Shown one piece after another: positions 20,697 through 49,558 of a stretch of 64,000 bases of DNA. Position 1 is the first letter of the stretch. Each line of letters starts with the position of its first letter. The stretch is from the NCBI GenBank assembly GCA_001972305.1, contig BDDD01002394.1, forward strand, positions 84,644 through 148,643, read 5' to 3'. Both the position numbers and the translations under genes were made by a program. The notes beneath the pieces are model-generated. The model did no database searches. It had not been told where the DNA came from and was given only the letters and a program-made list of their open reading frames with translations. The stretch is from Cephalotus follicularis (lineage: Eukaryota; Streptophyta; Magnoliopsida; Oxalidales; Cephalotaceae).

Positions 20697-20888
20697 TTAG
20701 AATGATGAGGTACCGACTGAAGGGTATCCAACATTTTTTATTTCCTTCAGTGTGCTAGCTAGCCAGTCCAGTCCCTCATAGAGGCCATCTCCCCTAAGCG
20801 CACAAGTTCCTTGTATATGCCATCTTCTGTTCTTGATATCAAAGAGGCCTAGTCCTTCACATACTTCCATTGGGGTCATTGCTCCTTT
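20697..20888 (-). CDS. ARFB1: ARFB1 coding exon 6 (terminal)
   Basis: 192 bases encoding residues 131-193 and the TAA stop. It contains [12 protein letters not shown], the G5 motif [14 protein letters not shown] and the C-terminus SVGTSSF. Acceptor TTCAG. Confidence 0.95.

Positions 20889-49558: not shown

Follow-up and report, generated by a model that had tools for sequence, protein, structure and literature searches.

The 64,000-nucleotide stretch of Cephalotus DNA analysed here (the window) carries on its minus strand an ADP-ribosylation factor (ARF) gene that spans 28.9 kb (49558-20697) and whose second intron, 23.6 kb long, is filled with nested retroelements. Our preferred reading, to which we give a probability of about 0.7, is that of an ARFB1b/c-type gene with an intron 2 enlarged by retroelements, the simplest history being one founding gypsy insertion (element D) followed by nested insertions. 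The exons of the gene and the elements of the intron are listed in Table 1, where A, B and C are copia elements, E is a solo long terminal repeat (LTR) and F is a small piece that we take to be MITE-like.

Table 1 Exons of the ARF gene, its two long introns and the elements within intron 2, in window coordinates
Feature	Position	Strand	Description
ARF exon 1	49502-49558	-	57 nt; start codon, MGQAFRK...
Intron 1	46000-49501	-	3502 bp
ARF exon 2	45909-45999	-	91 nt; P-loop GLDAAGKT; donor TTG/GTTGGT at 45908
Intron 2	22309-45908	-	23,600 bp, phase 1
ARF exon 3	22193-22308	-	116 nt; WDVGGQ
ARF exon 4	21902-21961	-	60 nt
ARF exon 5	21759-21824	-	66 nt; NKQD
ARF exon 6 and stop codon	20697-20888	-	192 nt
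D, degraded gypsy relic	23600-45258	+	interrupted by E, F, C and probably A; antisense to gene
A, copia	23909-33990	+	LTRs 23909-24064 and 33835-33990; K2P 0.103; flanks TCTTA/TCATA (4/5)
B, copia nested in A	27209-31564	+	LTRs 27209-27352 and 31421-31564; K2P 0.096; flanks ACACA/ACACA
Arm 1 of imperfect inverted repeat, in B	27834-31426		pairs with C
E, solo LTR	35442-37972		2531 bp; TG...CA; TSD AAATG on both sides; probably in D
F, MITE-like piece	38806-39016		211 bp; imperfect terminal inverted repeats
C, youngest copia, placed inside D	39342-44406	-	LTRs 39342-39476 and 44270-44406; K2P 0.023
Arm 2 of imperfect inverted repeat, in C	39471-42937		pairs with B

The six exons of the ARF gene join in phase into 193 codons and a stop codon, 582 nt of coding sequence in total, and all five introns have GT-AG ends, with the ten splice dinucleotides intact. 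The translation begins with MG (Gly2) and contains the GTP-binding motifs. The 193-residue protein matches the Pfam Arf profile (PF00025) with an E-value of 1.9e-70, over residues 6-176 and profile positions 2-173 of 174. At E-values up to 0.001 it also matches 583 distinct PDB sequences, and among the best 60 of these the best match is 6a8d, identical at 146 of 179 aligned residues. Arabidopsis ARFB1 sequences were compared over short stretches only, the primers printed in the accessible part of PMC6264874, with two deliberately mutated codons excluded. Within these primer stretches the Cephalotus gene has the same start (MGQAFRK), the same P-loop (DAAGK) and the same DVGG.EKLRP as ARFB1b, with 9 synonymous and 0 nonsynonymous differences over the 26 codons compared (exons 1-3), while the stretches of ARFB1a give 8 synonymous and 5 nonsynonymous differences over 20 codons. 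As the compared stretches fall in exons 1, 2 and 3, both sides of the long intron fit one gene type and, judged by these matches, the locus is a protein-coding gene of the ARFB1b/c type (ARFB1b and ARFB1c go under the name ARFA in the same part of PMC6264874). The original prediction of an intact six-exon ARFB1 GTPase gene, with all its GTPase motifs, is borne out by the exon joins, the five GT-AG introns and the Pfam match. The gene is long for its family, since the longest OsARF gene of rice measures 5.6 kb in the portion of PMC4838888 available.

Self-comparison revealed three LTR pairs inside intron 2, and an LTR pair, a PBS and copia-type pol domains were found in A, B and C alike. The PBS-like TGGTATCAGAG follows the LTRs of these copia elements and is presumably their PBS. 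The putative 5-bp target duplications agree to different degrees: B has 5 matches in 5, partly within a CA repeat, A has 4 in 5 and C shares ATAC only, while F displays no clear TSD at its ends. The pol region of C is broken into several ORFs. A degenerate minisatellite with 20- and 74-bp units occupies positions 36262-36537 within E. A, B, C, E and F, whose ends are mapped, together cover 17,889 bp, or 75.8% of intron 2, and coverage reaches 91.8% once D is added with its left edge assumed at 23600, in agreement with the earlier description of an intron filled with nested retroelements. The two ends of the intron, from 22309 to about 23.0 kb and from about 45.4 kb to 45,908, resemble an ordinary plant intron by eye. 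Near its 5' end, at 45600-45680, a B-box-like GTTCGATCC adjoins a CT repeat, a stretch that is possibly a SINE remnant. No Rfam family reached its gathering score in a scan of the window.

Relative to the gene, D, A and B run antisense, and C alone has the sense orientation. A TATA-like box suggests that E lies on the plus strand, which would probably make it antisense too. The orientation pattern is suggestive, over few events; in the part of PMC7145194 at our disposal, rice is described as having no strong orientation bias.

The donor of intron 2 agrees with the consensus at 5 of 9 positions and pairs with U1 at -5.0 kcal/mol. The original prediction had singled it out as weak, which is right in absolute terms but does not set it apart, as the other four donors of the gene, with 4, 6, 5 and 6 consensus positions, pair with U1 at -5.0, -5.1, -6.7 and -5.3 kcal/mol. 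Among the 1,375 GT sites of intron 2, 12.3% equal or exceed the true donor in U1 pairing. Read-through from exon 2 into the intron is predicted to yield a chain of 108 residues that keeps the P-loop and lacks the later GTPase motifs, so a useful output would depend on crossing intron 2. On the gene strand of the intron AAUAAA occurs 12 times, once in C, against 12.35 in 20 shuffles, that is, at chance.

By analogy with known systems, the intron might be heterochromatic and full-length mRNA might need IBM2/ASI1-EDM2 against polyadenylation inside the elements, a possibility that we regard as tentative and rather unlikely. Introns with transposable elements (TEs) can behave in this manner in Arabidopsis and rice, according to the accessible portions of PMC4417168 and PMC7145194, and in the former the loss of marks over intronic retroelements led, at selected loci, to less downstream transcription and more early polyadenylation. 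Intron 2 is likewise long, 5'-proximal and the host of large retroelements, and the D piece at 33991-35441 combines low CpG and raised TpG/CpA (1.36) with low CHG (0.68), a composition that would be consistent with past methylation. However, in the same part of PMC7145194, 980 of the 1,967 rice introns that contain TEs show no overlap with the heterochromatic introns, and of the 4,227 genes with heterochromatic introns 93 are among the 454 osibm2 DEGs. The base composition of the intron is mixed and argues against this possibility in part: the CpG observed/expected ratios of A, B, C and E (0.59-0.80) are not below those of the non-TE segments of the gene (0.34-0.45), with values of 0.61-0.63 for the gene flanks and of 0.37, 0.57 and 0.47 for the D pieces. 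The differences between the paired LTRs of A, B and C amount to 10 transitions and 21 transversions, the LTRs of A and B being without CG sites in this count, versus 26 and 24 for a gypsy element outside the gene, and the chance frequency of AAUAAA on the gene strand points the same way. Dependence on IBM2/ASI1 is thus, by analogy, possible and not required.

The layering of the elements is the evidence on which the preferred history of the intron is built. B is nested in A. The position of C inside D is well supported by the sequence on its two sides. To its right, RT/RNase H sequence matches RT_RNaseH_2 (E 1.5e-6) and RVT_1 (E 0.0023) in the frame at 44407, whereas in another frame this right-hand piece gave nothing in Pfam and nothing useful in PHROGs; to its left, the flank is similar to RT sequence from a different gypsy element in the window (score 53, equalled or bettered by 0 of 500 shuffles). 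The adjoining part of that RT aligns across the joint in the neighbouring frame (score 36, equalled or bettered by 7 of 500 shuffles). The frame of the RT match changes some 10 codons to the left of the joint, which makes D frameshifted; C landed in an RT whose frameshift was present beforehand or arose afterwards. E, with its perfect TSD, is probably inside D, and A lies in D or at its edge, its flanks agreeing at 4 of 5 positions. With B in A, C in D and E probably in D, most insertions probably struck elements already in place and not sequence belonging to the gene. The repeated insertions of the original prediction accordingly stand as far as nested elements are concerned, while repeated insertion into the gene itself was probably too strong a claim.

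D itself is called a relic because self-comparison gave no LTR pair for it; its ends and its TSD were looked for and not found. Its extent is reasonably supported only over 34.0-45.26 kb, the left edge being assumed and the right side ending after RNase H. The left pieces of D gave no convincing Pfam match, and we take the motifs of its gag and protease pieces to be gypsy-like. Open reading frames across the joints, obtained by joining 99 bases from each side at E, were also considered. The E joint has 65 open codons in one frame and stops in the other two, and the A joint has two of three frames open (62 and 65 codons), no D frame being established there. Shuffled sequences are as open as the real joints in 11.6% of cases for A, 5.1% for E, 6.6% for C and 7.6% for the non-coding B joint (a CA repeat). 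We therefore rejected the open frames at A, E and C as proof of insertion in D; this control has also weakened the placement of A in D, and has lowered our claim for D as founder and our confidence overall.

Alternatively, the elements could have inserted one by one into sequence proper to the intron, A beside D being an example, which would mean two or more independent hits. The flanks of A that agree at 4 of 5 positions only, the lack of a D frame across its joint and the assumed left edge of D would all suit such a course, but C lies within a gypsy RT, E has a perfect TSD with a 65-codon open frame and B is in A, so that we consider separate entry unlikely. D as a single founder is the simplest reading. 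In the history that we infer, one gypsy element, D, would first have inserted into an intron that retains about 1.2-2.2 kb of other sequence, and later insertions would have entered D and each other (C in D, E probably in D, A in or beside D, and B in A). Transcription would run across all 28.9 kb and intron 2 would be removed as an ordinary GT-AG intron, presumably tolerated because the older elements are antisense and the elements with mapped ends lie at least 1.5 kb from the splice sites.

The ages of the copia elements fit this nesting. Their paired LTRs differ at 15 of 156 positions in A, 13 of 144 in B and 3 of 135 in C, which at the grass rate of 1.3e-8 substitutions per site per year, possibly not that of the host, corresponds to 4.0 (2.2-6.5), 3.7 (2.0-6.3) and 0.87 (0.18-2.5) My, respectively, the intervals being those of the counts. 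Slower rates give 7.4, 6.9 and 1.6 My (at 7e-9) or 20.6, 19.2 and 4.5 My (at 2.5e-9). A and B are thus older than C and inseparable from each other by age. A copia element about a million years old, as originally proposed, is a correct description of C at 1.3e-8, and a loose one given its interval.

Whether the gene has worked throughout this time was addressed by simulating neutral decay from the ARF coding sequence, with a run counted as intact if it was free of stops and had at most 9 mismatches at 110 conserved positions, 9 being the number in the gene itself; the references were two distant proteins. In 7.4% of runs (P = 0.07) the sequence stays intact over the time since the insertion of A, a proportion that rises to 46% at the lower age bound, and in 76% of runs it does so since the insertion of C. 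Taken alone, an intact coding sequence is a weak argument for function in the time after the insertions, and does not show that the gene stayed intact through them, as had been suggested. A silent or mostly prematurely terminated copy, the work being done by a paralogue, would be compatible with neutral decay since A at these values. In the part of PMC6264874 accessible, moreover, an Arabidopsis ARFB1b ARFB1c double knockout and an ARFB1a knockdown were each without obvious phenotype, so loss could be tolerated. We nevertheless hold a silent copy to be improbable, since no damage is seen in the coding sequence, in any of the ten splice dinucleotides or in the GTPase motifs. We take the gene to be likely functional.

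The one less ordinary feature of the locus is an imperfect inverted repeat that the pre-mRNA carries because B and C are related copia elements in opposite directions. The two arms, about 3.4 kb each and separated by an 8.0-kb loop, are 73-76% alike and have 15 21-mers in common. Six pairs of arm pieces (I1-I6), 76-82% complementary, are predicted to pair at -203.6 to -597.6 kcal/mol, versus means of -54.0 to -200.7 kcal/mol for 12 shuffles per pair, although shuffles are no null for homology. If such a hairpin formed in the pre-mRNA, the path from donor to acceptor outside it would be about 8.5 kb instead of 23.6 kb. That the hairpin shortens this distance, yields small RNAs or does both is nonetheless very improbable in our estimation: comparable scores are to be expected of any two related elements with opposite orientations, pairing over a loop of 8 kb is hypothetical, and no perfect run in the six arm pieces exceeds 25 nt. 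A benefit to the gene, with exons 2 and 3 brought nearer to aid splicing, or small RNAs supplied that silence the copia family, is more doubtful still. Were it true, the young sense-oriented C would stabilise the gene rather than endanger it.

An assembly chimera of two partial loci, the error that the original prediction had itself named as a danger, is scarcely credible, for although the region is repeat-rich and was seen in a single assembly, the gypsy RT continues across C, E has a perfect TSD and A one of 4 in 5, the sole N of the window, at 6374, lies outside the gene, and exons 2 and 3 both match ARFB1b.

A gene with an intron lengthened by retroelements is of a well-known kind in plants, and the locus is a clear but ordinary example of it. 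In the accessible part of PMC3058033, grapevine is described as having 2,697 introns of 3-100 kb in 2,563 genes, more than 80% of their content being repeats, copia more than gypsy, with the large introns mostly placed 5' in the 39 genes compared. Intron 2 resembles them in being repeat-filled; the difference is that our analysis resolves the layers in a single gene. With the rice genes regulated by OsIBM2 (PMC7145194, in part) it shares a long, TE-bearing, 5'-proximal intron, here known from DNA alone. It is also comparable to Arabidopsis RPP7 and AT3G05410 (PMC4417168, in part), which have a large intronic retroelement of about 5 kb, versus about 21.7 kb of layered elements here. Intron growth by LTR elements has been reviewed for gymnosperms (PMC9364684, in part). 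Our literature search found no account of a retrotransposon insertion in an intron of a plant ADP-ribosylation factor gene. A search on intronic inverted repeats with 24-nt siRNAs brought up 13 papers, those listed being mostly reviews and studies of MITEs or miRNAs. The locus is thus a well-resolved case of plant intron growth in which most later insertions probably landed in elements already present. Loci of this type offer a way of examining if intron growth is held back by hits on the intron itself, and if the fate of transcripts changes with a single young copia element in the sense orientation; a single locus, analysed at the sequence level, leaves the general view unchanged.

Further elements were observed in the window outside the gene. 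A 1,731-bp gypsy piece occurs as two head-to-tail copies (1584-3314 and 3316-5046) that show 6 differences, as a result of either a recent tandem duplication or an assembly artefact. A gypsy element at 11139-19423, with 853-bp LTRs that are 94.1% alike (K2P 0.061), lies downstream of the gene, ending some 1.27 kb past the ARF stop codon. Upstream of the gene, 676 bp from the ARF start codon, begins an LTR-type element (50234-59653) that has TG...CA ends and TGAGG at either flank; its LTRs, 50234-53311 (of which 720 bp are absent from the other copy) and 57299-59653, are about 96% alike.
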